Source of the DNA: Owenia fusiformis
Taxonomy: Eukaryota; Annelida; Polychaeta; Sabellida; Oweniidae
DNA: 64,000 nucleotides
Direction: 5' to 3'
Assembly (NCBI GenBank): GCA_903813345.2
Contig: CAIIXF020000006.1
Coordinates: forward strand, 39,874,848 to 39,938,847
The notes under the pieces were generated by a model that did not search any database, was not told the origin of the DNA, and was given only the letters and a program-made list of their open reading frames with translations. The translations under genes were made by a program, and so were the position numbers. Below, one piece after another: positions 7,601 to 57,064 of the stretch; positions within the stretch are counted from its first letter, which is position 1; every line of letters starts with the position of its first letter.

Positions 7601-9452
7601 TTAATCATTTTGAAAAAAAATCTGAGATGTAATATTTTGAATTAATTTTATCAAATAATGGTTTTGATCCATGTTAACTCAAATGTGGAAATACTTATTT
7701 TGATTGTGAAATTATACTGTATTTACCTGTAAAAATGCCTGCAAAATACATTCCTACTAGTGCACCTCCTATGGCAATAAAAAGAGCCACTGCTACCCCT
7801 GCTACAATCTTAGCATAGCTTGTAGACTCTGTCGATTTAGGCCTAGGGTTTCTCTCAATATAGGCACTGTCAATGTACTTCTTATGTCTTGGGATGAAGG
7901 ATTGAGGTCTAGGAGGAAATGGATTCTTAGGTCTGCAATATAAGAACTAAATATCATGAATGCATTTGGAAAGGTTTTACCACTTCATCTGATATATTAT
8001 GTTTTACATTGTCCATATTTCCAAAATACAGGCACAGCCAATTAAAAGTGACATGAGACGAGTCAAGGTACAAATGGGAGGAAATTAAAGTTTTACAGTT
8101 GAGATACTATAGAATTAGAAAATTGAACTGGGTTTGTCTTGTTTGTTCTGATCAAAAAGCAGCTAGTGCAAAAATGTTTATCTTTTTCAAGAAAGTCAGA
8201 CAGATTGATTCTTAAAATTCAGCCAATTCTATGACATTCTGTTTTGCCACAAATATATCACAATAAGCTTTTCATCTATGTCTAGAATACTTTTCATGAT
8301 TCAGAATTACTGTACTCCCACCAATATTAATTGACGTTTTTACCTATAATCGCCCATCACTGGACGGAAATATTGTCAACATTGAAATCCCTGGGAATTT
8401 CCTTGGAATTTTGCGACTATCAAATTTCGTGAATTAAAACTGGAGGAATTTCACGGCTATTGCATTTCGGGAATTTTTCAAAACTCGCAAAAAGTCAGCT
8501 CACGAAAATTACCGGGAGTACAGTATTTGTTTGGCAGTGGCAGCATAACATCTTACCTCAAAGGTGGAAATGAACCAGCACTATTGAAGGTTGTGTAAAT
8601 GTTGCCGATACTTTCTGAGGCTACCCCAGAATCACTCCAAACGCTGTGAGAAGTCATTCTAGAATCAGAAATTATGTTGAGTAACTTTTGTATCCTCGTA
8701 TTTAAATTGTGTATTTTAGAAATTGTTACAAATATTACACATTTTAAATGCGTATGTGTGTGAGATTTTGAAATGACTGTCTAGTACGTTTATTTAGTTT
8801 TACAAAACATTAATTCATTATTATATAATTTAAATGTTAATCCTAGATCACATATAATGTGTAACAGATAATGGATTTCAGATTTGTATTCTGTGAACCT
8901 TGAATTATAACGAAGATGTACCAAGATGTGTTACTTTTATAGTGAAATATCATTTTTTGTTAAATGAAATATGATAAAAGAAAGATTAATTTCAAATGAT
9001 ATCTGCTTCCACATTTGTAATTAAATTAGAATTAAATAGTAACATTTAGCAAACCTTATTTTGTTCATTGGAAATTACTAGACTAGGTGAAGTTTTTTTC
9101 TACCAATTTATAGTTCATATGTCAAAGGTTGATACTATTGAATACAGTTATGACTTGACAGCTAAAGGGATGCATTGAATCATTGAAAAAATTGTGAAAT
9201 AACGATGCATAATACATCATTTGTATGTATGCATCATTTGTATGTATGAATATTGTTAAAATTTATGTATACTAATATATTGTTTATTTACAGGACTTCC
9301 ATTATAGTGAAATTATCTACATCTTGCGATTAATGCCTGTATTGATTTTTGGCTTATTTGCCAACTTTGCATTTCTAGGGATTGTTAATTACATATTATT
9401 TTTAAAAATATCGAATACTTACCTAATTTTGGTAATGGATCCAGGATGTCAT
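1660..9452 (-). CDS. Gene D: type II transmembrane mucin/TSP1/CILP-like protein, 5' part (3' end lies beyond the window)
   Basis: Coding exons, 5' to 3': 8657-8557 (start ATG 8657), 7932-7727, 3440-2475, 2283-2116, 1965-1660, all with GT-AG borders and in frame for 582 residues. A non-coding leader exon ends at 9423. The tail (residues about 1-75) has a Pro-rich PFPPRPQ stretch and Tyr motifs ([10 protein letters not shown]), then a transmembrane helix with a GGALVG motif, a Thr-rich stalk of 11-residue TDTTTVADTVI-type repeats, a TSP1 domain (WxxWxxW and CSVTCGDG motifs) and the regulatory-like domain ending in QALG. The Ig and CILP exons found in its paralogs are not in the first 1.66 kb, so they lie left of the window or are lost. 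It is the closest paralog of gene A: same tail, same leader exon, same stalk flanks. Its role is unknown; by family it is an adhesion or matrix-type surface protein. Confidence 0.85.
2475..3440 (-). repeat. Gene D mucin-stalk exon: 33-bp coding repeats
   Basis: The exon is a tandem array of a 33-bp unit coding TDTTTVADTVI and close variants, roughly 2550-3070, flanked by less regular Thr-rich sequence shared with gene A ([25 protein letters not shown]). Such Thr-rich segments are expected to carry dense O-glycans. Long open frames on the opposite strand are a by-product of the repeat. Confidence 0.9.
3524..4233. mobile_element. About 0.71 kb inverted-repeat element, family M2 (gene D intron 2)
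   Basis: Inverted repeats of about 130 bp: the left end carries accacgtgcagtatgg, tttaccatgagtactttctg and acaatatgttttctttcaag, and the right end their inverse. The empty site is seen in gene A near 21230 (atatcaataaaatttgagaaacc). Confidence 0.8.
5340..5640. repeat. Degenerate TTGCTTGG tetranucleotide-type microsatellite
   Basis: The stretch is a run of ttgc, ttgg and gctt words with little else, lying just left of a small inverted-repeat element. No coding is supported. Confidence 0.7.
5653..5950. mobile_element. 298-bp MITE with ATATC target duplication
   Basis: The ends are CATAGGCGTAGCC and GGCTACGCCCCTG (inverted), flanked on both sides by ATATC. The inside has G-run and C-run tracts. 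It is nested in the 3.1 kb insertion. Confidence 0.75.
8309..8526. mobile_element. About 0.22 kb inverted-repeat element near gene D exon 1
   Basis: TACTGTACTCCC at the left matches the inverse GGGAGTACAGTA at the right. It ends about 30 bp before the gene D start-exon splice donor. A shortened relative lies at the same place in gene A (22075-22120). Confidence 0.6.
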
Positions 9453-12642: not shown

Positions 12643-13353
12643 TTATAACCGTGTACACTTAAACAGTAAATCAAATCCAGCTCTTGGGTCTCTTTTATTA
12701 CACCGTACAGTGCTATGTTGTACCACTGCATTGACACGCTGCCCTGGCTGTCTGTCTCGCTGTTTCCATGTCTCCATCCTCGTTAAAATATAAACCTGTA
12801 CTTGGCCCAGCATGAATGATTCTAGTTGGTAGTTTGAATGTTGCTTCATTCTGGATTTGTTGATAGGGTTTCAGTCCATTTGAATTAAAGAAGGGACACA
12901 ATTAGGCCCAACTGCCAAGATTTTAATGACAGTCTTATCTTCAGTTGTTTGCCCACTTGATTTTATTATATCCCCACTTCCCTTGTACTCTAGGCAAGCA
13001 GTCCAGGGCTCTCGCCAGGCTTTTAGACTGTGGTGCAGCACCACACTCTATTGAGCTCCCTCCACACCCTATTGGCAAATCATGACTGTTTCCACAGTCT
13101 AAACTTGACTGAATATACAATAATAGCATGTAAAAATGATAAAACATAACATAAATATGATTTATCACGACTGAATGATTATTCTGAAGATGTTAGCACC
13201 ACACCCTAAATATTTCCTGGTGAGAGCCCTGCAGTCCTATCTTTGATCAAATCCTCCCTTCTGCCAAATAGCTTGTCTTATGTTTCAGTGTGTGTATGTA
13301 TCCCCATAGCTTGATTCATCTAGGAACAGTATTCAATCATTTGAAGACAAAGA
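12643..13353 (-). pseudogene. Gene B': broken 3' remnant of a CILP-like C-terminal exon
   Basis: On the minus strand this stretch matches the last about 230 residues of gene B (GLKPYQQ, TFKLPTRIIHAG, TGLYFNEDGDMETARQTA, KCTRL) but in shifting frames. It lacks the short piece around the GxTHTE segment, is interrupted at 13004-13231 by an inverted-repeat element, and stops near 13353 with no upstream exons. The 2 kb that follows it (10.6-12.6 kb) matches the 3' flank of gene B (23.25-25.17 kb), so this is the second gene of an older D+B' unit parallel to A+B. It is very unlikely to make protein. Confidence 0.85.
13004..13231. mobile_element. 228-bp element in B' with CAGTC duplication
   Basis: The ends CAGGGCTCTCGCCAGG and CCTGGTGAGAGCCCTG are inverted, and CAGTC lies on both sides (12999-13003 and 13232-13236). 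The insertion splits the homology of B' to gene B. Confidence 0.8.
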
Positions 13354-19400: not shown

Positions 19401-22400
19401 AGGAGTTGTCACAGGAGTTGTTGGGGTCGTCACAGATGTGGTTGTCGTAGCAATCGTTGTTGTGTCAGTGGTTACAGTATCAGTAACTGTTGTTGTTGTA
19501 ACTGTTGTTTCTAGCCCAGTTGTTGTTACTGGTCCAGTTGTTTTGCCTGGTCCAGTTGTTGTTTCTGGTCCAGTTGTTGTTACTGGTCCTGTTGTTGTAC
19601 CTGGTCCAGTTGTTGTTACTGGTCCAGTTGTTGTTACTGGTCCTGTTGTTGTACCTGGTCCAGTTGTTGTTACTGGTCCAGTTGTTTTGCCTGGTCCAGT
19701 TGTTGTTTCTGGTCCAGTTGTTGTTTCTGGTCCAGTTGTTGTTACTGGTCCTGTTGTTGTGACTGGTTTTGTCGTTGTACCCGGAGCAGTTGTTGTACCT
19801 GGTGCAGTTGTCATTTCTGGCATAGTTGTAGTACCTGGTCCAGTTGCTGTTACTGGTCCAGTTGTTGTTACTGGTCCAGTTGTTGTTACTGGTCCTGTTG
19901 TTGTACCTGGTCCAGTTGTTGTTTCTGGTCCAGTTGTTGTTACTGGTCCTGTTGTTGTGACTGGTTTTGTCGTTGTACCCGGAGCAGTTGTTGTACCTGG
20001 TGCAGTTGTCATTTCTGGCATAGTTGTAGTACCTGGTCCAGTTGCTGTTACTGGTCCAGTTGTTGTTACTGGTCCAGTTGTTGTTACTGGTCCTGTTGTT
20101 GTACCTGGTCCAGTTGTTGTGACTTTTTTTGTCGTTGTACCTGGAGCAGTTGTTGTACCTGGTGCAGTTGTCATTTCTGGCATAGTTGTAGTACCTGGTC
20201 CAGTTGTTGTTACTGGTCCTGTTGTTGTACCTGGTCCAGTTGTTGTTCCTGGTCCAGTTGTTGTTACTGGTCCAGTTGTTGTTACTGGTACTGTTGTTGT
20301 ACCTGGTCCAGTTGTTGTACCTGGTCCAGTTGTTGTTACTGGTCCAGATGTTGTTACTGGTCCGGTTGTTGTTTCTAGCCCAGTTGTTGTTACTGGTCCA
20401 GTTGTTTTGCCTGGTCCAGTTGTTGTTTCTGGTCCAGTTGTTGTTACTGGTCCTGTTGTTGTACCTGGTCCAGTTGTTGTTACTGGTCCAGTTGTTGTTA
20501 CTGGTCCTGTTGTTGTACCTGGTCCAGTTGTTGTTACTGGTCCAGTTGTTTTGCCTGGTCCAGTTGTTGTTTCTGGTCCAGTTGTTGTTTCTGGTCCAGT
20601 TGTTGTTACTGGTCCTGTTGTTGTGACTGGTTTTGTCGTTGTACCCGGAGCAGTTGTTGTACCTGGTGCAGTTGTCATTTCTGGCTTAGTTGTAGTACCT
20701 GGTCCAGTTGTTGTTACTGGTCCAGTTGTTGTTACTGGTCCTGTTGTTGTACCTGGTCCAGTTGTTGTTTGTGGTCCAGTTGTTGTTACTGGTCCTGTTG
20801 TTGTACCTGGTCCAGTTGTTGTTTGTGGTCCAGTTGTAACTGGTCCAGTTGATGTGCCTGCTCCAGTTGTTGTATCAGCAACTGTTGTTGTACCAGTGGT
20901 TGTTGCATCTGCAAATGTTGTACCAGGGATTGTTGTATCAGTTACTGTTGTTTTGTCAGTGGTTACAGTATCAATAACTTTTGTTGTACCCCTGTCAGTT
21001 GCATCTGCAATTGTTTCAGCAGTTGTAGCTTTTGCTGGAAATGTGGTTGTTGCAGGTGTTATTGTGGTATTAATTTGAGTTTTCATTGGTGGTATTGTGG
21101 TTGGTTTATTTGAGGTGGCATTTAAATACAAAGCTCCAGTCTGATTCCCTGTAATAAATTTAATCGCATGTTAAACAATATTCTTAAGGCTGCCTAACAG
21201 CATAAATAAAAGAGAAAAATAATATCAATAAAATTTGAGAAACCTGCTGTTCTACATTTAGTGCCCATCACTTGTCAATTCAAGACCATGGTCCATTGGC
21301 ATTCTCTTTGAAATATGCTGAGATTCTATTTTTCAGACTTCACTCATCAAAATTCATTAAAACAAATAATACTATACATGTAGTGCCTCAATTGCTAATT
21401 ACTTTTAGTTCCACACTGTCCTGAAGAGGTTATTAAGGCCTTTGCTTCCAATTTCCATCCATATTATTTATGACAAAATCACCAAGTTCTGAAAACTGGA
21501 ACGCAGAAATAGTTATTTTGATTGTGAAATATATTTACCCGTAAAAATGCCTGCAAAATACATTCCTACTAATGCACCTCCTATGGCAAGAACAAGAGCC
21601 ACTGCTACCCCTGCTACAATCTTAGCATAGCTTGTAGACCCCGTTGACTTAGGATTAGGGTTTCTCTCAATATAGGCACTGTCAATGTACTTCTTATGTC
21701 TTGGGATGAAGGATTGAGGTCTTGGAGGAAACGGATCCTTTGGTCTGAAGAATTAGAAATCAGTATCATGGATCCACGGAGACTAGTTTTCCCAATTCAT
21801 CTGATATATTATGTTTTACATTGTCCATATATCCTAAATACAGGCACAGCCACTTAAAAGTGACATGAGACAAGTCAAGTTACAAATGGGAGGAACTATA
21901 ACTTCTTAAGTAAGTTCTTGATAAGTTTTTTAGTGATTAAAAACTTACAGTATTTTGAAAAATAAAACACAATTATATTCAAGCAAAAATCGCAGTGATA
22001 TTGAAGTTTTACAGTTGGGAGTACTATAGAATTAGAAGATTGAACTGGGTTTGTCTTGTTTACTCTGATCAAAAAAGCGCGAAATATAGTAGCACGCGAA
22101 AATTACTGGGAGTACAGTATTCATTTGGCAGGGGCAGCATAATATCTTACCTCAAAGGTGGAAATGAACCAGCACTATTAAAGGTTGTGTAAAAGTTTCC
22201 GATACTTTCTGAGGCTACCCCAGAGTCACTCCAAACCCTGTGAGATGTCATTCTAGAATCATGAATTATATTGATTAACTTTTGTATCCTAGTTTTTAAA
22301 TTGTTTATTTTAGAAATCCTTACAAATATTCAACATTTTGAATGCCTATGTTGCAAGATTTCAAATGACTGTCTAGTACATTTATTTAGTTTTACAAAAC

Positions 22401-31100: not shown

Positions 31101-34100
31101 AGTATAGAATAACTTACCTAATGCTTGCATTATGATCTCAAAGGGTGTTCCACCATCAGCACCAATAGAAGTGACATTAGTCATATATTTCTCTTTCTCA
31201 CTCACAAGTTCAGCATTTTTACAAAGTCCTGGCAGTTTGAGAGCCCCTGATGAATTTGTCAACCCAAGGGTCTCATATTCTAGGTCTTTTAAGGCTACCC
31301 TAACACCAGCTAAAGGGACATGTTTTGTATTGTAAACATTAATGTGCCTTGTTGTCATGGGACATTCACATGCTGTGCAATCCTGATTCCGCTGTTGTCC
31401 TGCTGGACAATTGAGGCTGCAATCTAGACAAAATAATTAAAGGACCCATGTAACGTTTGGAAGTTTTGTTTAATGAAAAGTCATACAATCCCTGATGTTT
31501 GAAGAAAAACACTTTTAAAGTGTTAAAATTTTTGTTCCATTTGTATATTGAAAAAAAAACTTTTTAATTTATTCCATATTCGGAGAATGCCGGTCCTTGT
31601 AGCGGTACACAAATTCACTGCACTATTGACTCCTCCAGACAAATTTCAAATTTGGTGCACATAAATGTAAAATGTTGCTGTTATATTAAGGAAGAGCCAA
31701 ATTGTCCCACTTTTCCTGGAACACTTTTCAAAAAATGGTATATTACATAATGTTAAGTATGTTTCAATGAATATAGAAGAATATAATAAGTAATATTAGA
31801 AAGAATTGTGTATAATTACCTGGACATCTGCCATTGTTGCATGATCGAGTGACCTCCTCTGAACCATCACAGTCAACATCAGTTGGAGACGATTTTTGAC
31901 AAACACGTGATCTTTTCTGTACCCCATCTCCACATGTCACACTGCATTGCACCCATGCAGACCAACTGCTCCAAAGACCATAAACAACTGCAAAAGATAT
32001 TATTTTTACCTTTGCACAAGATGTGCTGCATCGAGTGTGAAGTTTAGGAAACAACGCCCGAGTGGAATGAATCAGCCACAATACATCAGGTCTTGGGCTT
32101 AAATTCTTTTTACATATTGCAAAACATTTTCTATGAAATCTCCTGAAAGATACAAAATTACTAAAAGGACATATATATAATCAACTTTTTGCAAGGGCCA
32201 AGTTAGCAAAGCATCATTATCAATCTGTAGTCAAGTTGTCACCTCGACAACGATTTAGCAAATTACCTTGGGTGAGTTATTGGTTATATAATGCAGTGTA
32301 TTTAAATGAAATACTGTGTTCAGATTGGCTAGAATCAGACACACCTTCCCCAGCTATAATTCAAAAATTAATTATAATACATATTATTTATTTACCTATT
32401 TTTACTTCTCTTCCATCAATTATTTCAGTGGATTTTGTGGGCATTGGAGTTGTTATGGTTGTTACAGGTGTTGTTGTGCTTGTCACAGGAGGTGATGTAG
32501 TTGTCACAGGAGTAGTTGGGGTTGTCACAGGAGTAGTTGGGGTTGTCACAGTTGTTGTGGTAGGAGTTGTGGTTGCCACAGATGATGAGGTTGTCACAGA
32601 GGTTGTAGGTGTTGTCACAGTTGTTGTGGATGTCACAGGAGTTGTTGTGGTTGTCACAGGAGTTGTTGGAGTTGTCACATGGGTTGTGGTTGTATCAGGA
32701 GTTATGGTTCTTACAGTAGTTGGCAAACTAGAGGAAGGTGTTGGTGTCATTGGTGTGTCCATTATAGAAGAGCACTTTGGCAGCCATGCTTTAGTACAAC
32801 ATTCTTTTGTAAGAGCATATTCCCCAACTCTCAATTTTCCATTTTCACAATGAATGTATCTGCAATCCACTATCATTGTTTCTTGACCTTCACACTCAGT
32901 TTTTTGTGTGGATGTTGGGGCAGTGGTTGGGATTGCAGGAGTTATTATGGTTGTCACAGAAGTTATCTTGGTTGTCACGGGAGTTGTTATGGTTGTCACA
33001 GAAGTTATCTTGGTTGTCACGGGAGTTATTGTGGTTGTCACAGGAGTGTCTGAATGTATCCAATATCATCTAAATTACAGTTTAGTAAATGGAAGGTTAA
33101 GTGGCCAAAATTGGTTTTGTATTGATGCTAGGACACTAAATATTATATTCTCAAATACATGTACCTGTAAACAATCCTGCAAAGTACATCCCTACCACTA
33201 TCACTCCAATAGCAATTACTACACATATTACCACAATTGCTATGATCTTGGCCAATTTTGCAAACCTTGAGGGATCTTCTTTCTCTGCAAACTTTGGGGG
33301 ATCTTCTATCTCTGCATAGATTGGTTCTGATGTGTAACCATCATACCTGAAATATCAAAGACAATGAATAATGTTTGCAAATGCTCTCTCTGTTTGATTG
33401 TTTTTGAAAATGTCAATCTATTTGGAATGTTTGTGAGTCAAAATATTTCTCATTAATATACTTTATGTTGATATGGCTTTATTGACAACAGAAAATTATT
33501 TTCAATATTAAAAAAACGGTTCTTTTGAAGGGCTAGATAACATATGCGAGGATGTCATATTGATGTCATTCTGACGCAAGTACGAGGGGTGATCAATAAG
33601 AAATGGACGCTTTTTTACACAGATACTTTTTATCGACCAATCCCTTTGATTTTCCTACCAGTGATACATCATTCACTTATCTATCAATTCTGAAGATTTG
33701 AAGACAAAATCTGTAATACATGTTGATCTATCCTTATTTCTGTGAAGGAGGTACAGGTACCCCGGGACCGACATTTACGTCACATATTCAGTTTTTAGCC
33801 AGTTTGGCAAATTTCAGTTACATTTAAACTTTTTTTTTATATGCAACAAGTGTGTGTTGTTTCAAACATTTTGCTGACTGGTTACACGTAAACAGTGAGT
33901 GATGTGAAGTGATGTCAGAGTGTTGTATGGTCAGGGTTTGCAGTTCTATTTGAGGAAGCATTGTGGAAGAAGGGGTTGGTGAGAAAATGAAACACCCCAC
34001 TCCATATGGACAATTCACCTGCCCACATATCTCAAAATGTTCAGAAAACAATATTCCCGGACCTCAAAATTGAGTCCTTGGCCAATGCACCATATTTTCC

Positions 34101-35112
34101 AAATGTGCTCACATGTGCAACTGCATCTTGCTCCCATGTCAGAGAATGGATTCAGCCTTGTCTCACAATCTTGAGTTAAGAGGATGAGGAATCGTGTACA
34201 TGAAGGACTTGATGGAACCTATGTAGAGGGCCCTGTAGAATGAATGTGACATGAATACCACATAGTGATGATAAAATATTCAAAATCAACTATGGCATAA
34301 CAAAATGGGGTAATTCATGACCAAAATGTTTTGTTTTGTTCAGCCTGCATTCAACTGCATTGCATGTTAAACAAGCTATAATAACCTGAGAATGTTTGAC
34401 GTAAATGTCGGTTCCGGGGTACCTATACCTCCTTCACGGAAATAAAGATATATCAAAATATATTACATGTTTTGTTTTCAAATCTTCAGAGTTGATAGAT
34501 AATTGAATGATGTATCACTGGTAAGAAAATCGAAGGTATTTGTCTATAATAAGCATCCGTGTAAAAAAGCGTCCATTACTTATTGATCACCCCTCGTAAT
34601 ATGTTAGATGTGAAGATGTAAGTCACAAGGCTGAGCCACTTCCATCATCAATATCCATTTGAAATAGAATTGTTCTTGACATTTGAAATAATTTTCTATT
34701 GTCATAAATTGTCATGTGCTGGATACAAAGTTTTGTCTTCCTATCTTTAGTCCACCTATGTAGCTCAGTGGTACTGTGTTTACCAATTACGCAGGTCACC
34801 GGATTTTTCAATTCCTTGTTCAGGCAAGACTAATTTGCTTGTTTGCTTAAAGTATTTCAGGGTGTATGACGTGGTCCATTACTTTTACAAAAGGATATGG
34901 TTTGTACCTAAACAAAAATATAATACAATAATGATGCCTTACCTTGGTTTTGGAGTCAGATCTTGTTTGGGTCCATAAATGGGATGTCCCCCACCAGTGA
35001 GGCCTGTGTAGAAATGTTCTCCTCGAGGCCCATTTAGACCAGCATAGGCAGATTCCTTGCTAGATTTGGGATTTGAGGGTACCATATAAATGCTACCTCT
35101 ATTAGAAGACAT
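25171..35112 (-). CDS. Gene B: type II transmembrane CILP-like protein with ITAM-like tail, 1349 residues
   Basis: Coding exons: 35112-34943, 33346-33165, 33049-32396, 31987-31820, 31423-31118, 30608-30500, 28647-28493, 27476-25171. Total 4050 nt, in frame, all GT-AG. The tail (1-90) carries YMVP (Y9), YAGL (23-26), an 8-residue spacer, YTGL (35-38), and EPIYAEIED (Y67). The transmembrane helix is about 91-114. The stalk (118-335) is short and Thr-rich, and is interrupted by a six-Cys module at about 168-211. Then TSP1 336-391, regulatory-like 392-493, Ig 494-581 and the CILP-like region 582-1349 with a KRKKR-S furin-type site. Intron 7 (27.6-28.3 kb) holds an inverted-repeat element, intron 6 a Helitron, and intron 1 a mariner-like element. 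The first coding exon starts one base before the ATG, so the 5' UTR lies in an upstream exon, possibly ending at 37131. A signalling role is inferred from the tail motifs only. Confidence 0.9.
27599..28305. mobile_element. About 0.71 kb inverted-repeat element, family M1 (gene B intron 7)
   Basis: The ends are AAAGGAGTGGTATCGATATGG and CCATATCGATACCACTCCTTT. The matching intron of gene A lacks it (gacatcttaaattttcaata near 15940), which shows the empty site. Confidence 0.8.
28808..29969 (+). mobile_element. Non-autonomous Helitron in gene B intron 6
   Basis: It starts A|TCCCATCGAACGAAG and ends with a CGCCA-cgctt-TGGCG hairpin (29940-29954), 11 nt, then CTAG|T: the TC...CTRR ends, subterminal hairpin and A/T insertion site expected of Helitrons. 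GTTCGATGGGA near the 3' end repeats the 5' end in reverse. Inside are a GTCC/GTAC microsatellite (28849-28889) and about five 140-bp repeats with AAAATGGCCGCCATTTT palindromes (29190-29870). No RepHel protein is present. Confidence 0.8.
30317..30373 (-). other. Conserved intronic hairpin (gene B intron 6)
   Basis: TTTCACACGATGATATTCCAC pairs with GTGGAATATCATGTGTGAAA. Both arms changed relative to gene A (CCAT/ATGG to CCAC/GTGG), which keeps the pairing. Confidence 0.6.
32396..33049 (-). repeat. Gene B mucin-stalk exon with embedded six-Cys module
   Basis: Thr-rich PVTT/ITSVTT repeats flank a non-repetitive segment at about 32772-32897 with Cys residues at protein positions 170, 180, 185, 201, 202 and 210 (TECEGQ, DCRYIHCENGKL, KECCTKAWLPKC). 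The module is absent from the stalks of A, C and D. I do not recognise the fold. Confidence 0.8.
33583..34596. mobile_element. 1.0 kb mariner-like element in gene B intron 1
   Basis: Ends CGAGGGGTGATCAATAAG and its inverse, with TA on both sides and inverted repeats reaching about 200 bp (including ggtaccccgggaccgacatttacgtc and its inverse). The gene C intron shows the empty site (gacacaagtaatatgttat, 51440-51458). No transposase frame is intact. Confidence 0.85.
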
Positions 35113-43271: not shown

Positions 43272-46200
43272 TTATGCTCTCCTGCACTTAATAAGAATAC
43301 CATATCCTGTTGTTGGCTTTCGAGTATCACACTGTACACTGTTATGCTGTGCTTCACTGCATTCACATGCAGCTTTGGCTGTATGTCTCGCTGTGTCCAT
43401 GTTTGAATTGTCATCAAAGTATAGTCCTGAACTTTCCCCAGCATGTATGATTCCAGCTGGTAGTTTGAATGTTGCTGTTGCTTCACCGTGAGCGTATTGT
43501 TGTAGCCCAGTCGTAATAGTATAAACACAATCTGTACCTTCAGCCACTACTTTAATAACAGTCTCATCAGATTCTTGCTGAGAGGTTGATGTAAAAATGT
43601 CCCCACTTCCCTTGTATTCCAAGCATACAGTCTTATCTTTTGTCACATCCTCTCTGCTGCCAAAGAGCCTGTTCATTGTTTCAGCATGCTTACCTCCGTA
43701 GCTTGATACAACAACCTTTGATTCATCTGGATGTAGTGTTCCACCATTTGCACCATTACTCCAAACTTCAACTCTAACCTTGATAAACCAGGCCCAGTGA
43801 ACAAAGGGAGCATTTGGAAACCAAGCTAATGGAAAGAGTGAGTTTTCACCAGGACAATCAAGCAAACTGGTACATGCTGTATATTCAACTAAAGTGTCTG
43901 CTGATCTATAGAATCTATAATGAGAGTTATTATTTTCACTTGTCACACAATTGATATAAGCCTGTGTATATGAATGCTTACAGGCTACCCGGTCACATTT
44001 CATGCATTCTGGTATCTTCTCAACTAGGTTAGAGCAATACATACATAATTCACTGTCTTCATCATAACATATTGATGTCTGGCTGTCATATAAAGGGCCT
44101 GATGTTGTCAATGGGCTGACTGTTGTGTTCAATACTGTGTATTGATCAGCCCCTGGTCGAATTTCTGCCCATGCATTTGTCACACCAGGGACTGATGGTC
44201 CCCCAAGTGTAGTTGAGCCATGAAGTGGTCCATCAATTGTGTTAAATGTTAGGTATCCCTGGAAATGGTCAGCCTCGCACATAGTTAATACACAGTCCCC
44301 ATTGGACCCAACTTCTCTAAAATTCACATGAACAAAGCTTTGTTTGCCAGTTATGTGCTGCCATGTCTCTGCCCTGTCCCGTGCAATTACAGTTGGCTCA
44401 TTTGTAGAAGCTGGTGGTATTTGTGTGGTCATGTTATCACTATCATATGCCTTAATATTAACAAAACAGTAGTCTTCATTGACCCTGTCAAAATTGTACC
44501 AATATCTTCCTACTATCGTCATGTTCCCAATGAAGAACTCCCTCTCAAACTGAGATCGACTTCGCTTCTTCCTTCTAGAGAGTCCTTTTCTTAATGAGCC
44601 TTCAAGCTCCCATCTTCCTGAAGAAGGATTGAAAGACCAAAGCTTGACATTCGTGGTATCATTTGCTCCTAATCGTTCTGGACTTATGGCCATTTCAACA
44701 TCACCTTCGATGTTTAGCTCATTTCCAGCAGGATCTTCAAAGCTCATATGAAACATACCAAAGGTCTGTAGGTTTGCTGTTTGTCCATTGCTGTCCATAA
44801 ATGTCAGATCTCCAGGCATGGTGTCTATGCTGTCCATATCTGTTGGATCAAGGAAGTTTACACTTGCCTGAACTTTTCCATTATACTTTGTCCCATCCTT
44901 GCTATAAAATGCTCCATCGGGAATGATCACCTCGGCAAGCGATGTGTTCGAACTGGTGTTTGTTAGGCTTAATGTGTTGATATCAGAAGAAGATATTTCA
45001 ACTATTGTATTCTTTCTAAGCATTGGAATATCTCTATAGAGAGTTCCTGTAAAATCATTTGGGATGTAAATTGTTTTGGTAGTTTCAATGAAGTTCAGTT
45101 TTTGGAAGCCTTCCTTTACAGTAATAACGAGCCGGGATACATCTTTTGGCACAAGAAACTTAAATTCACCTGTAAAACTAGTGTGGGTTACTAATTCATC
45201 AAAGAGAAACATCTCACCTAATCTAAGAGGTATACCTTTGTCTAGTACATCATGTACATATCCACTCAAATATACTTTTGGATCAGATGTCAGAACGTTT
45301 CCATCTACTTCAACTTGGTTACATATCTTGCAACCACACTCTATAGTTTCTGCAATGTCAATGGTGTAAGAACTACATGTCAATGTCCTCAGTTCCTGTC
45401 TGATTGGTCCACAGCAATATTCTTCTTTGTCTGTTATTGGCCGTTTAATACATGGATTTCCAAGGCATTTCTTAACATCATAATGGTAGGGCGTTTCACC
45501 ATCTTGTGGACAGTCCTTTGGAAGTGATTTAAGATGTAATATTGGTGTTGAATTACAAAATCTCTCGCCATCATCTATAAAAAATTGAAGTGTAAAATGT
45601 AATGCATTGTTCAAAGGGCAAACCAGAATTGATGTGAGAAATAGTCATGAGTTAATGTTTGCCATGTGAATCTCCCTATTTTTGATTCTAATTACATGAC
45701 ATCTTAAAGGTCCATGTGTAGTATGGCAAGTGATTTTAGACAGTCATATCTTTCACCATGAGTACTTTCTGGCCATAAATACAATGGTTTTTATTAAAAC
45801 AATATGTTTTCTTTCAAGTGAAGTCCCCATGATAGTAAAATATCAATCCAACTCTCTGAAAAATTATGGATTAGGGCCCCACCTTGACACTTTTAAAAAA
45901 GTTTAGGCTTATTTTCTAAAATAGGATCTAGTTTTTCTCAATTTAAACATATCGAAAGTTTCTTTTACACTATATTAACAATTTCTGAAAAGGGGATGTG
46001 TATTGAAATCCGTTAAAGTTAAAAACCACATATTCCATGTTATTTTCCCATGGGGAAAACTTGTGTTATCCATTGTTTTCAGCATCATTTTGGTCATCGA
46101 AAATTGATATCTTCAAAACTAGTCTTTCAATACCATTATATTTTTGAAGATGATTTAGACCCCTTGTTTAATAATCTTTTCATGCAATAAAAATCAGAAA

Positions 46201-49200
46201 AAGGAGGTCCTCTTTTGAGTAAATAGGTTCAATGTCTTGAAAAAAATGTTGACATGGGGTCCCTATTCATATTTTTTCGAATTGTTCGATTGATCTTTTT
46301 TATCACCATGGATATTCCACTTGAAAGAAAACATTTTTTTATAAAAACCACTGTATTTATGCACAGAAAGAACTCATGGTGAAAGATATGACCGTCTAAA
46401 ATCACTTGCCATACTGCACGTGATCTTTTTCAATATTTCATTGATATCTCAATTCTTGATCAGAAAATAAATTAAGATTGTAAGGCTTAATAAGCTTGAT
46501 GCTATATACTAAAGTATGTTATGGAGAAGCCACCGTAGTCCTTTTCTCTTGATGAATTTCCTGAACTAAGGAAAATAGAATGATTTGTTGGTCCATACCT
46601 CTGACAAGGAGTGTAGCAGGATTAGAGTAAGCAACACTAAAGTCAGACTGTGCTAGACACATGTAGGAAGCACTGTCATTGGTTGTCACAGATTGTATGA
46701 TTAGTGTGTTTGTATTACTTCCAGTTGATGTCATTTCTTTGCCATTCTTATACCTATTGAACAAATAGTTTTACTATATCACTGTCATATATTTCACTCT
46801 CCGATTGTTTCATGTCCTTCACTTAATTCGAAGATAACAGGTGATAATCAATGTAATTCATATGATTTCCATGGAATATTATACAAATATTTCAGAAGTG
46901 AATTGAATTATTAAATTGAAGCCTATAGGCCCAGGGGAATACACATTGACGAATCATTGAAAGTTCAAGAGGTATTCACTGAAAATAGTGTGAAATATTT
47001 GTTTTATTATGATGAAATTGTGAAAAGTATGATAATGGAATAAATAGTGATTACGTGATAATTGAATGTTTTAATAGAAATGGCCAATGGTCTCTTCTAT
47101 AGTTTATAGTTTATTTCATAATATAACAATGTAAAGTACAAAACGTGTGCACACGACACCCTTAGTAATTGGGCGTATCAGTGCTTATTTCAAAATGTGT
47201 TGCAGAGCAACCAAAATTACATATAATATAACATATAACAATACAGATACAATTAATAGATACAATACAGAAACTTTGAAGTCTTGAGAGAAATAATTAA
47301 ATAAACAAAATAAAACAGGCGCATAACAATAACATGTGAAAATATAATTAATAGAAAGGAGGAATAAAATAGTGAATGATAAATCAAGCATTTATTTTAT
47401 TTTTGGTAAACTCATATGGCACTTTCACAAGATGATATTCAACTAGCCCCTGTGGCTTCATGGAATATCATTTGTGAAATATGTACAGATTTTCAGTGAT
47501 TAAATATTTGTTTATTGTCCAGTATGGCAATTACATGATACAATACATACAATTTAGCTAATTTTTTATAAACACGGCATAAAAACATATGAATCTATGC
47601 ACCTACCATGAGTATGTATCTGGAGGTGGTTTACCAATAGCTTTACATGTAAAGTTAACATTGTCCCCCACAAGGGCAACTTTACTTGAAGGATGACGTG
47701 TGACTTCTATTCCCTCTGTAATAGAATTTGAAGATGTAGAATTTCAATCCTTCATTAGGTCCAAAACGGTTAGAAAGAACATTCAGATCAAATCATATGT
47801 TTGGTGATAACAAAAACCATGTTGAACGATATGTTTTCTGAATGATAAAATATTTTAAATTTTGTATTGGGGATTTTTATATTAACACACCAATTCTGGT
47901 GGATAAAATAAACATGAATAAATAAACAAGACCAGCAATTTTTATTCTGAGTCATACTTTTTCTGAAACATGATTTTATTTTTTACAAGTGCTTCCTTAT
48001 TGAGTTTTATTTCTCGATGATTTAAATGTCAATTACTTAGTATTAAACAATTTCTATTGTTACTTAATGTTTTATCCGCGACATATTAGGTATGAAACTC
48101 GACATTGATAATTTTACTTCCTGGTTCATTTCATTAAACAAACAGAAACAAGAAATTTTCTTATGTGCATCAATGTTGGAGATATTTGGCAATTGGGATT
48201 GTAACAAATTTTGAACTTTTTAAGTGCAGACAGGTTGTGCAGACATTCCGTTAATTCCTTAAAACGAGTTTGTTTTGTCCGATAAAAGTATAAAATAACT
48301 TACCTAATGCTTGCATTATGATCTCAAAGGGTGTTCCATCATTAGCACCAATAGAAGTGACATTGGTCATGTATTTCTCTTTCTTGCTCACAAGTACAGT
48401 ATTGTCACAAAGTCCTGGCAGTTCCAGTGCCCCAGATGTATCAGTCAACCCAATAATCTCATACTCTAGGTCTTTTAAGGCTACCCTAACCCCAGCTAGA
48501 GGGACACGTTTTGAATTGTACACAGTGATTTGTCTTGTTGTCATGGGACATTCACATGCTGTGCAATCCTGATTCCGCTGTTGGCCTGCTGGACAATCAA
48601 GGCTGCAATCTAGACAAAATAATTAAAGGACCCATGTAACGTTTCGAAATTTTGTTTAATGAAAAAAAATTATATGATATTTTCTTTTATTTTCCATTCT
48701 ATAAGGATGAATAAAGGAAAACATTAATTTTTAAAAGCTTTTTTAAATCATACAATCCCATTTTGAAAGAACCATTTTTAAAGTGTTAAAATTTCTGTTT
48801 CATTTGTATATTGAAAATTAAAATTTGAAATTTATTTTTCTGAAATATAGTATAGCTCATTCATGTACAAAAACAACTAGACATTAAACTCGTGGGTAGC
48901 AATATTCGTAGAATGCCGGTCCTCGTAGCGGCAGCAAATTCACTGCACAATTGACTCCTACAGACAAATTTCAAATTTGGTGCACACTAATGTAAAACGT
49001 TGTCAAATGTTGCTGTTATATTAAGGAAGAGCCGAATTGTCCCACTTTTTCCAAGAACATCTATTCAAACAATGTTATGTTACATAATGTTAAGTATGTT
49101 TTAATAAATATAGAATAAGTTAATAAGTGATATTAAAAACAATTGAATAATTACCTGGACATCTGCCATTGTTGCATGCTCTAGTGACCTCCTCTGAACC

Positions 49201-51828
49201 ATCACAGTCAACATCAGTTGGTGAAGATTTCTGGCAAACACGTGATCTTTTCTGTACCCCTTCTCCACAAGTCGCACTGCATTGCACCCATGAAAACCAA
49301 CTGCTCCAAAGACCATAAACAACTGCAAAAATTGTATGTCTCAGGACCTTTCTAATGTTGAATGATTATTTAATGATTTAAGCCCTGGAGTGCAATGTAG
49401 CCTGAATCATTCCTCAAAAAGTTGTTATATTAACCTTTGCACAAGATGTGCTGCATCGATCGAGAAGTTGAGGAAACAACGCCTGAGTGGAATGAATCAG
49501 CCACAATGCGTCAAGTCTTGGACTTCCTTTCACATTTTGCAAAATATTTTCTATGAAATCTCCTGAAAGATACAAAATTACTAAAATTAGATATTTATAA
49601 TGAAACCTTTTGCAAGGGTCAAGTTAGCAAAGCATCGTTATCAATATGTAGAGTTAAGTTGTCACCTCAACAACCATTTAACAAATGGCCTTGGGTGAGT
49701 TATTAGCTATATAATGTAGTGTATTTAAATGAAATGCTGTGTTCAGATTGGCTAGAATCGGACACACCTTATCCAGCTATAATCCAAAAATAATTATAAT
49801 ACATTTATATTAATAATAATCCTTTATTCACCTATTTTTGCTTCTCTTCCATCAATTATTTCAGTGGATGTAGTGGGTATTGGAGTTGTTGTGGTTGTCA
49901 CAGGTGTTGTTGTGCTTGTCACAGGAGTTGACCTAGTTGTCACAGGAGTTGGTGAGATTGTCACAGGAGTTGTTGGGGTTGTCACAGTTGTTGTGGTTGC
50001 CACAGGAGTTGTTGGGGTTGTCATAGTTGTTGTGGTAGGAGTTGTGGTTGCCACAGTTGATGAGGTTGTCAAAGGGGTTGTCACAATTCTTGTGGTTGTG
50101 GTAGGAGTTGCCACAGTTGATGAGGTTGTCACATGAGTCGTTGGGGTTGTCACAGTTGTTGTGGTAGGATTTGTGGTTGCCACAGTTGATGAGGTTGTCA
50201 CAGGAGTTGTTGGGGTTGTCACAGTTGTTTTGGTTGTGGTAGGAGTTGCCACAGTTGATGGGGTTGTCACATGAGTTGTTGGGGTTGTCACAGTTGTTGT
50301 GGTAGGAGTTGTGGTTGCCACAGTTGATGAGGTTGTCACAGGAGTTGTTGGGGTTGTCACAGTTGTTTTGGTTGTGGTAGGAGTTGCCACAGTTGATGGG
50401 GTTGTCACATGAGTTGTTGGGGTTGTCACAGTTGTTGTGGTAGGAGTTGTGGTTGCCACAGTTGATGAGGTTGTCACAGGAGTTGTTGGGGTTGTCACAG
50501 TTGTTGTGGTTGCCACAGTTGATGAGGTTGTCATAGGAGTTGTTGGGGTCGTCACAGTTGTTGTGGTTGCCACAGTTGATGAGGTTGTCATAGGAGTTGT
50601 TGGGGTTGTCAGAGTTGTTGTGGTTGTGGAAGGAGTTGTGGTTGCCACAGTTGATAAGGTTGCCACAGTTGATGAGGTTGTCACAGAAGTTGTTGGGGTT
50701 GTCACAGTTGTTGTGGTAGGAGTTGCGGTTGCCACAGTTGATGAGGTTGTCACAGGATGGGTGGTTGCCACAGTTGATGTGGTGGTGGTGGTTGTTGTGG
50801 TAGGAGTTGTGGTTGCCACAGATGATGAAGTTGTCACAGGAGTTGTTGTGGTTGTCACGGGAGTGTCTGAAATGATTTAATATCATGTTAAATCACAATT
50901 CAATAGATAGAAGGTTAAATGACCAAAATGTGTTCTGCATTGATGCTAGGACACTAAATATTAAATTCTCAAATACATGTACCTGTAAACAACCCTGCAA
51001 AGTACATCCCTACCACTGCCGCTCCAATAGCAATAACTACACATATTACCACAATTGCTATGATCTTGGCCGATTTTGCAAACCTCGAGGGTTCTTCTTT
51101 CTCCGCAAATTTTGGGGGATCTTCTATCTCTGCATAGATTGGTTCTGATATGCAACCATCATACCTGAAATATCAAAGACAATGAATAATGTTTGAATCT
51201 TTTTTGAGTGTTTATTTGTCAAAATAGTGTACAAGAATATTCTGTATGTTGATTTCGACTTGCACCTTGGGTTTATTGTCATACAAGAAGATATAGTATA
51301 TCGAACAGTGATTAAATTTTTGCCAACAAATATTGTCAAGTGACCCAAACACTTGTAATCAGAAATAGGTGTTGATACTCGTGATTAGGATATTTTAGAT
51401 AGATATCATTTGCAAGGACATCATACTGATGCCGTTATGACACAAGTAATATGTTATCTAGATGTAAATTAAAGATGTAAGTCACAGGGCTGAGACACTT
51501 CCACCATCAATATCCGCGGGAAATGAATTTTTCTTGAGGTATTAATTCAGATATAAAATAATTCAATATAAAATATTGACATTTTCTCTGTCAGTTGGAG
51601 ACATAAGCTCAAGCATTTCAATATACCTGAAATAATGTCTTACCTTGGTGCTGGAGTAGGATATTGTTTAGGTCCACTTAAACCTGGGTAAATGGTCTCT
51701 TCTCCACCAAAAAGAGATGAGTAGAAATGTTCTCCTCGAGGCCCAGTGAGACCAGTATAGGCAGAGTCCTTGTTAGAGTTTGGAGGTGTAGGTACCAAAT
51801 AAATACTCCCTCCTCTATTAGAAGACAT
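43272..51828 (-). CDS. Gene C: type II transmembrane CILP-like protein with triple YxxL tail, 1480 residues
   Basis: Coding exons: 51828-51644, 51164-50983, 50866-49832, 49322-49155, 48609-48304, 47715-47607, 46753-46599, 45574-43272. Total 4443 nt, in frame, all GT-AG. The tail (1-95) has YLVP (Y10), then YTGL (24-27), 8 residues, YSSL (36-39), 7 residues, YPGL (47-50), and EPIYAEIED (Y72). The transmembrane helix is about 96-119. Then a Thr/Pro/Ser stalk 123-467 (PTTPVTTSSTVATTTPTTTT units), TSP1 468-523, regulatory-like 524-625, Ig 626-713 and the CILP-like region 714-1480 with an RRKKR-S site. The tail and transmembrane exons match gene B, while the C-terminal exon (for example [31 protein letters not shown]) matches gene A, so it looks recombinant. 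A 229-bp element lies 51 nt past the stop and carries the first AATAAA in sense orientation. Confidence 0.9.
45706..46428. mobile_element. About 0.72 kb inverted-repeat element, family M2 (gene C intron 7)
   Basis: This is a second copy of the 3524-4233 element: the same inverted ends (AAAGGTCCATGTGTAGTATGG and the inverse GCCATACTGCACGTGATCTTT) and the same inner sequence. It sits at the intron position where gene B carries an M1 element. Confidence 0.8.
47422..47479 (-). other. Conserved intronic hairpin (gene C intron 6)
   Basis: TTTCACAAGATGATATTCAAC pairs with ATGGAATATCATTTGTGAAA, with two mismatches near the loop. Confidence 0.55.
49832..50866 (-). repeat. Gene C mucin-stalk exon: Thr/Pro/Ser repeats
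   Basis: Repeats of [22 protein letters not shown]-type units with higher-order copies of about 120 bp (compare 50215-50335 with 50335-50455). Translation in the spliced frame stays open from D123 to I467. Two other frames are also open across much of the exon because the repeat lacks stop codons. Confidence 0.9.
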
Positions 51829-53822: not shown

Positions 53823-53896
53823 TACAGGATGTCCCGAAAGTATGCCCCCCCCCCCACAGGCAGACATAAACAAATATCTCCATAGTATCCATCATA

Positions 53897-54957
53897 CAGG
53901 GTGTTCCAAAAGTAACAGGACTGGTGCTGGCATTTTGTTAAATATACACCAATCGTCTTCCAAATTTTACATAATGTACTTTCATGTATCGTTACTAAAA
54001 TTGCAAAGTTTCGACAAAAAATATGTAACTCGGGTAGAGTTATGGTTGCTATGGTAACATGACATCACAATACCCGGGGCAACATTCCAAGCAGAACGTT
54101 ACATTAAGACAGAAAGAGATATTAAGCATTTTGTACATCCCATATCAAAGTTGAAATGCAACAACTGTTGGGAATTACATTTGTTTTACATAATTTGATA
54201 TTCCTATGTATCCTATGTACTTTGAAAAATAGGCTCCTCTTTGGTCAGTAGAAGAGTAGCACTCTGTATCCATGACTCAAACACATGAGTGAACCCATTT
54301 GAGGCACGTATCACGCATGGTCGATTGAACAACTTGGAGAAGGTCATTCTCATCTTTAAAGATCTTACAGCACTGATTAGCATTCCATTCTCCATGTAAG
54401 TAAAAATTGGATGTTGCATGATCAGAAGAGTATGGTGCATGGTTTTAGAACTCAAGACCTAGCTCCTCTCTAGCTGCATGGTCTTTAATGGTGACCTGCG
54501 GGCAGACGCACTATCAAGGTGGATGACTGGCTTCAAATTGGGTCTTTTCAAAAACTCAACCATGAATTGTTCGGACTGTAATTCATAGTGATATTCCAGG
54601 AAATTGAATAAATATTATCATTATTATGGAATTATACTTGAATCTGAGTTTTATAGCAACACCTTTACAACAAAGCAACTAATAAAATAAACAAGAAATG
54701 TTGTATTATAATAGGTGAATTAGATACTACCTTCAGTAATACAAAAAATGTTAGATATCACATTTTCAGAAAAAGTTGCCCCGGGTATTGTGATGTCATG
54801 TTACTATAGTAACCACAACTCTACCCGCATTTCATCATTTTTTCTGAAACTATACAATTTTAGTTGCAATACTTCAAAGTACAATTTGTGAAAATTTGAA
54901 GATGGTGCAAAATTGACAAAATGCCAGCACCAGTCCTGTTACTTTTGGAACACCCTG
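53897..54957. mobile_element. 1.06 kb mariner-like element nested in 53825-57364
   Basis: Ends CAGGGTGTTCCAAAAGTAAC (43 bp near-perfect, about 190 bp overall) with TA flanks. On the minus strand, 54200-54600 has a decayed coding look (VIHLDSAS..., then VVQSTMRDTCLKW) that could be the end of a mariner transposase, but frames are broken. Confidence 0.8.
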
Positions 54958-55172
54958 TATATCATTTTAAAGCTCAGCCAAAGTTTCATTGATTTTCCAA
55001 GTATCATGGTTAAACTCAAAAATGTCAAAAAATTACAGACAGTTCAAAATATGTGTTTGGCCAAAATTAAAGTTCAGTGTTTTGCCAAATTAATAGTCAG
55101 TGTGTCCTCCCTCCCTTTCAGATATGACCTAAAAACGCTTCATATAGAGTTGTGGCATTTTGTAATCCACTT

Positions 55173-55873
55173 CCCAGATAGCACAACTCTGATGGGCCAA
55201 CGTTGGCCCAACAACTACGTATCTGTTGGCCCAACGTTGGCTGTCGTGGTTGGCCCACCGTCGCTATGTCCATCGGTCCAACGTTGGTCCACCGTCGCTA
55301 TGTTCATTGGCCCAACGTTGGTCCATTGTTGGCCCAACACGATTTCAAGCTACGTTGGCCCATAGTTGGCCCACTAATAGTAAGAAGACTGGTTGGCCCG
55401 ACGTTGGTCAACAGTTGGTCCGACAATGTTAAGAGGGATGTTGGCGCATTGGCGGTCAAAACTGGTTGGCCCAACGTTGGTCAACAGTTGGGCCAACTTT
55501 GGCCCAACGATTACGTATATGTTGGTCCAACGTTGGCTGACGTGGTTGGCCCACCGTCGCTATGTCCATTGGCCCATGGTTGGCCCAACATTGGTCCATT
55601 GTTGGGCCAACCATATTTTCTTTCGGTGGGCCAACGTTGGGCCAATGGACATAGCGACGTTGGGCCAACCACGTCAGCCAACGTTGGTCAAACATTGGCA
55701 GCCACCACAGAACCAACGTTGGCCCACTGTTGACACAATTTACCTTTTTGTACAGCCATTGTTGGCTCCCTGGGCAGCCAACGACAGGCCACATGAATAA
55801 TTTGCCAACTGCAACCTTGAGAACCAATGGTCACCGATAGCGACGTTGACCCAACGTCTTTGTGCTATCTAGG
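55173..55873. mobile_element. Palindrome-rich MITE, CCCAGATAGCACAA ends
   Basis: CCCAGATAGCACAA at the left, TTGTGCTATCTAGG at the right. The inside is almost wholly copies of GGGCCAACGTTGGCCC and variants in both orientations, interspersed with tcgctatgtccat. Confidence 0.75.
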
Positions 55874-56232
55874 CATTCAGTACTGCTACTGTAAATGTGT
55901 TCACATATTATATCCGTTTTACATCAATAAAATATGGTGGCTTGTTTTTCCATACTAAATATATTTGGTAGCCTTATAAGTGGTTTCAACTGTATTACAA
56001 GGCGAAAATCCATATTTTTGAGGTGAACAACATTATCAGATAATTTTGAAAGAAAATATTACAAAAATTTACCTTAATTTTTTTTAATGACTGCTGGTAT
56101 GTTTTCTTCTATTTTTAAGCATTTGCAATGATTTATCGATAGGTGGCTTCCTGGTATTAGCGGCAGCCAACAACGGGCCAACGTTGGCCCAACTACAATT
56201 TGCCAACTGCAATTTTGCACTGATCGATAGGT

Positions 56233-57064
56233 CCCAGATAGCACATCGCCAATGGGCCAACGTTGGGCCAACAACTACGCATCTGTTGGCCCAACGTCGG
56301 CTTGAGCGGTTGACCCAACGTCATTTTGTCCAGCGGGCCAACGTTGGTCCAACAGTGGCAAAAAATTATATTGGCCCAACGTTGGTCCAATGTTGGCACA
56401 GATAGCACACCGCCAGTGGGCCAACTTCGGGCCAACAACTACGCATCTGTTGGCCCAACGTCGGCTTGAGCGGTTGACCCAACGTCATTTTGTCCAGCGG
56501 GCCAACGTTGGTCCAACAGTGGCAAACAATTATGTTGGCCCAACGTTGGTCTAATGTTGGCAAAAATTATGTTGGCCCAACGTTGGTCCAATGTTGGCTC
56601 GACAGTGCTTTAGTGCTAATGGCAATGTTGGCCCAACGTTGGCCTTGCAGAGGGAACAGATAGGTGGGTGGCCCAACGTTGGCCCAACAGTACTTTAGTG
56701 CTACCCAGATAGCACAACGACGTTGGGCCAACGTTGGTCCAACATTTGCAGCGTCTACAACGTCAGCGTACAGCCGTAAAATTGCTGACTTCAGGCCAAC
56801 AGAAAAGTGTACCTTGACGACCTCGTACCAACGTCGGCCCAACGTCAAAGTACCGCCCTAAAATTGCTAACTTCAGACCGAAAAAGATGTGTCATTTGCC
56901 AACCTTGTACCGACGTCGGTACAACGTGAGCTTACAGCCGTAGATTTGCCGACTTCAGGCCAACGGAGAAGTGTGCCTTGACAACCTTGAACCAACGTCG
57001 GCCCAACGTCAAGGTACCGACGTAAAATTGCCGACGTTGGGCCAACAAAGACGTGCTATCTGGG
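56233..57064. mobile_element. Compound of three palindrome-rich MITE copies
   Basis: Left ends (C)CAGATAGCAC occur at 56233, about 56398 and 56704; a right end GTGCTATCTGGG closes at 57064. The copies at 56233 and 56398 are near-identical for about 150 bp, so the block grew by tandem or nested insertion. Confidence 0.7.

Follow-up and report, generated by a model that had tools for sequence, protein, structure and literature searches.

The window analysed here is a 64,000-nucleotide stretch of the Owenia fusiformis genome (contig CAIIXF020000006.1, positions 39,874,848 to 39,938,847; C6:39.87-39.94 Mb of the 498-Mb assembly). Its minus strand carries gene C, together with exons of the paralogous genes B, A' and A. 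For gene C we assembled a model of eight minus-strand exons with GT-AG ends and matching phases, which together form an uninterrupted 1480-residue frame that stops at 43272. The predicted product consists, in order, of a 95-residue tail, a helix, a Thr-rich stalk, a TSP_1 domain, a domain of about 100 residues, Ig_3, CILP_5th and CILP domains, a weak CILP_8th match and a CILP_C domain.

Exon 1 (51644..51828), which runs from an ATG to an AG followed by the donor GTAAGA, translates to MSSNRGGSIYLVPTPPNSNKDSAYTGLTGPRGEHFYSSLFGGEETIYPGLSGPKQYPTPAPR, a predicted cytoplasmic tail with the motifs YLVP, YTGL, YSSL, YPGL and YPTP; four paralogous tails (B, D, E and F) have the start and the exon-end phase in common with it. 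Exon 2 (50983..51164; acceptor TTTCAG, donor GTACAT) joins exon 1 in phase 2 and encodes YDGCISEPIYAEIEDPP... with IYAEI, a juxtamembrane stretch containing K/R and a predicted hydrophobic transmembrane helix, as the initial annotation had proposed when it continued the tail through EPIYAEI. The mucin-like stalk, about 55% Thr, is encoded by exon 3 (49832..50866), the TSP1 domain by exon 4 (49155..49322; Pfam TSP_1, E 3.6e-9), and the domain of about 100 residues, which had no Pfam match at E 0.1 or better, by exon 5 (48304..48609). The Ig domain is divided between exon 6 (47607..47715) and exon 7 (46599..46753), with an Ig_3 match of E 4e-18 across both. Exon 8 (43272..45574) contains CILP_5th (E 7e-18, 65 bits), CILP (E 3e-19, 69.2 bits), a weak CILP_8th (E 1.9e-4, below its cut-off), a furin-like RRKKRS at residue 1048 of the product, CILP_C (E 2e-15, 57.1 bits) and the stop, the Pfam cut-off being 27 bits. 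The CILP domains thus lie in one continuous reading frame with the tail and the helix, in agreement with the initial annotation.

A ninth exon at 49435-49562 was tried and rejected, because it breaks the frame and its omission restores it. A similar open stretch is conserved between stalk and TSP1 in gene C (49435-49551), gene B (32010-32099) and gene A' (18930-19010), all on the minus strand, and may be an alternative exon or an intron relic.

Gene C shares with CILP1 and CILP2 the TSP1, Ig, CILP_5th, CILP and CILP_C domains, with TSP1 and Ig N-terminal to the CILP domains as in the CILP family, as well as a basic, furin-like site that precedes CILP_C; CILP undergoes furin processing. Vertebrate CILPs are secreted and have a signal peptide, and to our knowledge they have neither a helix nor a tyrosine tail. 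In contrast, the gene C model begins with its 95-residue hydrophilic tail and helix, as judged at the level of hydropathy and with a further 5' exon possible. On the basis of its predicted domains, we class gene C with the relatives of CILP rather than with the secreted CILPs. Four K/R stand in the 15 residues that precede the helix and none in the 15 that follow it, which predicts a cytosolic N-terminus and supports, as a prediction, the type II topology claimed earlier; such counts cover 8 of the 15 helices found in the family, several of them with few residues on the outer side.

Directly before the ATG we noticed a splice-acceptor-like AG, reading AG/C in genes C, B, D and F (with a poor pyrimidine run in F) and AG/A in gene E, so at least one exon further upstream of gene C exon 1 probably exists. 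Two other features lie upstream of gene C. At 53894-54960 of the window, terminal inverted repeats (58 nt, 93%; 131 nt, 82% complementary) surround about 0.7 kb, resembling a non-autonomous DNA transposon, and at about 55170-57060 a dense array of palindromic TTGGCCCAACGTTGG-type repeats was seen by eye.

Tail motifs of gene C and its close relatives

The array YTGL-x8-YSSL-x7-YPGL reported for exon 1 was found again with the same letters, coordinates and spacers. It fits the ITAM consensus, worded as YxxL/I(x6-8)YxxL/I in PMC10008955, in two overlapping matches with spacers of 8 and 7, as had been claimed. By motif, gene C is a candidate ITAM receptor, a class defined biochemically by dual phosphorylation and binding to the tandem SH2 of Syk. 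We shuffled the 62-residue exon-1 peptide 100,000 times at constant composition: three or more YxxL/I occurred in 0.41% of the shuffles, a pair at spacing 6-8 in 0.57%, and three consecutively at spacing 6-8 in 8 of the 100,000 (0.008%). Composition alone cannot account for the triple array, but the figures are not proteome-wide probabilities, because only composition was preserved, the motif was picked after being seen, and the even spacing may come from a repeated unit. YTGLTGP, YSSLFGG and YPGLSGP do resemble copies of one unit, and tandem copying of Y-x-G-L-x-G-P may have produced the spacing.

Five genes have a tail of this type: C, B and D on C6, E on C3 and F on C7. Gene G on C1 is a more remote member with an incomplete tail sequence, and for G, A and A' we placed the tail splices by eye. 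The paralogous tail exon of gene B (34942..35112, minus) encodes YAGL-x8-YTGL, having lost the third motif, and its exon 2 (33166..33345, minus), with IYAEI and the helix, is 90% identical to that of gene C. A pair at 6-8 spacing, present as two overlapping pairs in gene C, is kept once in each of B, D and E and is absent from F and from the partial G tail. In gene F the three YxxL motifs are replaced by NVGL, HIGL and HAGL, so that the leucines are retained and the tyrosines lost. IYAEI in exon 2 is conserved in all six tails of the group.

The tail evolves as coding sequence: dN/dS was 0.41-0.61 in all ten paralogue pairs (0.30-0.74 for exon 1 alone), and the phase at the end of exon 1 is identical in all five tails of the gene C type. 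When the seven tail tyrosines of gene C were compared with the paralogues, 21 of 28 comparisons showed the tyrosine retained; the remaining residues scored 198 of 348, with gaps counted as not kept. This is a modest difference among related rows, and gene F contributes four of the seven losses. A separate feature of gene B is a Cys-rich segment in its stalk exon (window 32757-32912, minus), ECEGQETMIVDC...CCTKAWLPKC, for which the sole other match in the window had an E of 0.54.

The wider family and the SH2 proteins of the genome

A CILP_C profile gave at least 29 matches at 28 or more loci in the genome, two matches at C4:23.216 Mb being taken as one locus. Upstream of 15 of the 28, on the same strand, we found a predicted helix after a Tyr-rich tail; nine of these loci include the group of gene C, A and A', and six came from 17 further upstream stretches. 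In the other 11 of the 17 stretches, a hydropathy filter over 6-10 kb each found no tail and helix, by which absence is not proven; the survey of upstream DNA took in all loci but C4:1.65 Mb and C4:23.216 Mb. Gene C is the one member for which we built a complete model; at the other loci, the link between tail and CILP exons is based on order and strand. Two pairs, L016/L017 and L022/L023, are almost identical, have one member each on a small contig and may represent alleles. TSP1-like exons taken from five of the six further loci with tail and helix all match TSP_1.

Tyrosine makes up 102 of 1416 residues (7.2%) across the 15 tails, and the motifs in which it stands vary. An ITAM-spaced pair occurs in five tails, those of C, B, D, E and the distant L024. 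Three YxxL/I consecutively at ITAM spacing occur, among the 15, in gene C and, with other motifs, in L024 (G000:C9:611979-621978, 4819-5328), whose tail reads DIYEEI-x7-YQTL-x8-YATL followed by YQTV, YATL and PPPYDTI; judged by its motifs, L024 is in our view a better ITAM candidate than gene C. The L015-L017 tails carry YTNP or YANP together with YVKP, YNTK (DYNTK), YETL and PPxY, that of L020 carries YEEI and YQQV/YGQV, and that of H carries YEEI and DYLTM. YxxL/I is absent, among the 15 tails, from those of A, A' and L025. With a single pair left in B, D and E, none in F, and tails of unrelated sequence in A and A', the ITAM arrangement is no fixed trait of the family; its recurring feature is the Tyr-rich tail.

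In a tree of 27 CILP_C rows, midpoint-rooted, with a long-branch warning and leaving out C4:23.216 Mb, genes with a helix form four groups, and the ITAM-spaced tails belong to two well-supported clades (100/100 and 99/99). The ITAM label requires four changes on this tree, and as few were needed in 227 of 500 sets of shuffled labels. A single origin of the ITAM spacing is therefore unsupported by the CILP_C tree, the trait being no more clustered than shuffled labels.

The helix exon of A' (matched part 21540..21626, minus, near 21626) belongs to a tail with MTSH..FYTTF..AYIER, and that of A (matched part 7728..7865, minus, near 7865) to an almost identical tail. The two are identical at 95 of 102 residues of tail and helix but at only 270 of 413 residues of CILP, whereas the CILP of gene A is nearer to that of gene F on C7 (332 of 422 identical), with the A and F tails identical at 32 of 91 positions. 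The CILP exon of gene A lies outside the window and is linked to the A tail by order and strand. These figures suggest that gene conversion or unequal exchange moved the 5' module and so gave a tail a new outer part. Between A' and A, at about 12646-13000 (minus), two reading frames hold degenerate CILP_C-like fragments, noticed by eye and probably left over from another gene copy.

An ITAM receptor would be expected to have a Syk-type tandem-SH2 kinase in the same organism, and we found a candidate at C1:53.027-53.043 Mb. With human SYK as the query, four exons for the N-SH2, interdomain and C-SH2 parts were found in order at C1:53,027,444-53,031,599, with a fifth segment besides. When the joined tandem-SH2 translation was compared with PDB, the 12 best matches among the best 60 of 206 were SYK or ZAP-70 (E 3e-43 to 6e-24), followed by PLC-gamma at 6e-15. 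Three collinear kinase exons with 51-64% identity to human SYK lie about 9 kb downstream, at C1:53,041,327-53,042,569. Several longer kinase exons at other places in the genome reach better E-values than these short ones, the best of them with 42% identity, so that we assign the kinase by its identity, exon order and neighbourhood. We infer that the SH2 and kinase exons form one gene, the intervening stretch having been partly read. Judging from these exons, the genome encodes a predicted tandem-SH2 protein of the Syk/ZAP-70 type with Syk-like kinase exons downstream. SHP-2-like SH2 domains were found at C1:48.42 Mb with a slightly inexact query. On the minus strand of G000:C4:17803395-17824578, a kinase exon 53% identical to SYK lies beside two SH2 exons and is possibly part of a second Syk/Shark-like gene.

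Reading the tail

We favour, at a probability of about one half, the reading that the product of gene C is a CILP-family surface receptor, single-pass and of type II, whose tail is a docking platform for phosphotyrosine and SH2 domains. If the gene is expressed as modelled, the 95-residue N-terminal tail would lie in the cytosol with the helix as its anchor, and the Thr-rich stalk would hold the TSP1, Ig and CILP domains outside the cell, where cleavage at the furin-like site may split the CILP part. Engagement by a ligand, or clustering, of the outer part would lead Src-type kinases to phosphorylate the tail tyrosines. A tandem-SH2 Syk could then dock on the YTGL/YSSL or YSSL/YPGL pair, whose tyrosines are 12 and 11 residues apart, and partners with a single SH2 domain on IYAEI, while paralogues with other tyrosine motifs would send different outputs from similar outer parts. 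Signalling from ITAM to Syk is plausible for gene C, and the link of the Syk-type pathway parts to this gene is one that we infer. The docking reading is supported by the single 1480-residue frame, the helix and tail at 15 of 28 loci, the ITAM pairs in 5 of 15 tails, the retention of tyrosines, the dN/dS of the tail, and the Syk-type exons and SHP-2-like SH2 domains of the genome. It is weakened by the loss of all three tyrosines in F, the lack of YxxL/I in A, A' and L025, the unclustered ITAM trait and the fact that YxxL is also YxxPhi.

This last point opens a different reading, less probable in our judgement but a serious rival, in which the motifs are YxxPhi sorting signals bound by AP-1/AP-2 on the unphosphorylated tail and drive the endocytosis or polarised delivery of the protein, which would be a mucin-like receptor for scavenging or matrix uptake. 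All four YxxL/I of the tail (YTGL, YSSL, YPGL and YAEI) fit YxxPhi on the predicted cytosolic side, as does the IYTTF or FYTTF retained in the A and A' tails, which does not fit ITAM. One YxxPhi motif suffices for sorting, and the differences in motif number and spacing between paralogues would follow from this, but the 11-12 residue spacing would then be unneeded; we know of no such requirement in sorting, whereas this spacing suits tandem-SH2 binding. Several of the paralogous tails have motifs that act as SH2 ligands and not as sorting signals. YANP, YVKP, DYNTK and PPxY do not fit YxxPhi, and YEEI, a Src-SH2-type motif, recurs in three tails (H, L020 and L024). It is because of the tyrosine spacing, these non-sorting SH2-ligand motifs and the encoded Syk-type protein that we favour docking.

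The tail could also inhibit or tune, with single YxxI/L motifs recruiting phosphatases of the SHP-2 type or kinases of the Src type; the ITAM spacing would then be a by-product of a repeated unit. The conservation of IYAEI in the whole gene C group while the triple array is not conserved, the likeness of the array to tandem Y-x-G-L-x-G-P copies, and the SHP-2-like SH2 domains of the genome would suit this reading. Compared by eye with the ITIM consensus (I/V/L/S)xYxx(L/V), in the wording of PMC10008955, SAYTGL fits formally, but HFYSSL, TIYPGL and EPIYAEI lack I/V/L/S at -2. Since B, D and E each retain a pair with 7-8 residues between despite their divergence, we consider the inhibitory reading unlikely. 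Finally, the main product might be secreted or started elsewhere, exons 1 and 2 being minor or unused with the CILP exons. The acceptor-like AG/C directly before the ATG, which makes an upstream exon probable, and the secretion of vertebrate CILP point in that direction. We regard this as very improbable, as the phases of gene C fit from exon 1 to the stop, a tail and helix followed by TSP1 recur upstream of other CILP loci, and the tail evolves as coding sequence.

Receptors that carry tyrosine motifs in their own tails are known. Dectin-1 and CLEC2 are type II, like the predicted gene C product, whereas Draper is type I with EGF repeats in place of CILP domains, an own-tail motif of the ITAM type being common to Draper and gene C. 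In Dectin-1, CLEC2, DNGR1 and MICL, a hemITAM or ITIM of the YxxL type in the receptor's own tail is read by Syk or phosphatases (PMC10008955); such C-type lectin-like receptors have a lectin fold and one YxxL, whereas gene C has CILP, TSP1 and Ig domains and at least two YxxL at ITAM spacing per chain. In Draper/CED-1/MEGF10 with Shark/Syk, the own ITAM of an invertebrate receptor is read by Src- and Syk-type kinases (PMC4503800). Botryllus FcoR and Hydractinia Alr are candidate allorecognition families whose tails combine ITIM, hemITAM and core YxxI/L/V in varied ways, and thus resemble the gene C family as invertebrate receptors with varied tyrosine-motif tails; FcoR are type I Ig/sushi proteins, and the passages that describe them mention no CILP domains (PMC12065747). 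The suggestion that gene C represents an undescribed receptor type may hold for the combination of a CILP outer part with such a tail and not for the own-tail motifs. Among the matches listed in a search of literature titles and abstract openings, with most subscription journals outside it, no CILP protein with a helix and an ITAM-like tail appears to be described.

A broader proposal, which we put forward as speculative, is that the family forms an undescribed multigene class of CILP-based type II receptors for sensing self/non-self or damage, in which varied outer parts and interchangeable phosphotyrosine tails (ITAM-like, YEEI, PPxY), ITAM-spaced in two separate branches, would be re-paired by recombination. 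The paralogues, of which C has three motifs in exon 1, B, D and E a single ITAM-spaced pair each and F none, form a natural series suited to testing the need for ITAM spacing against the Syk-type kinase of the genome. If our reading is true, a family of matrix proteins would have turned into signalling receptors with tyrosine tails in the style of immune receptors, and such tails would occur beyond the Ig and lectin receptors in which they are usually studied.
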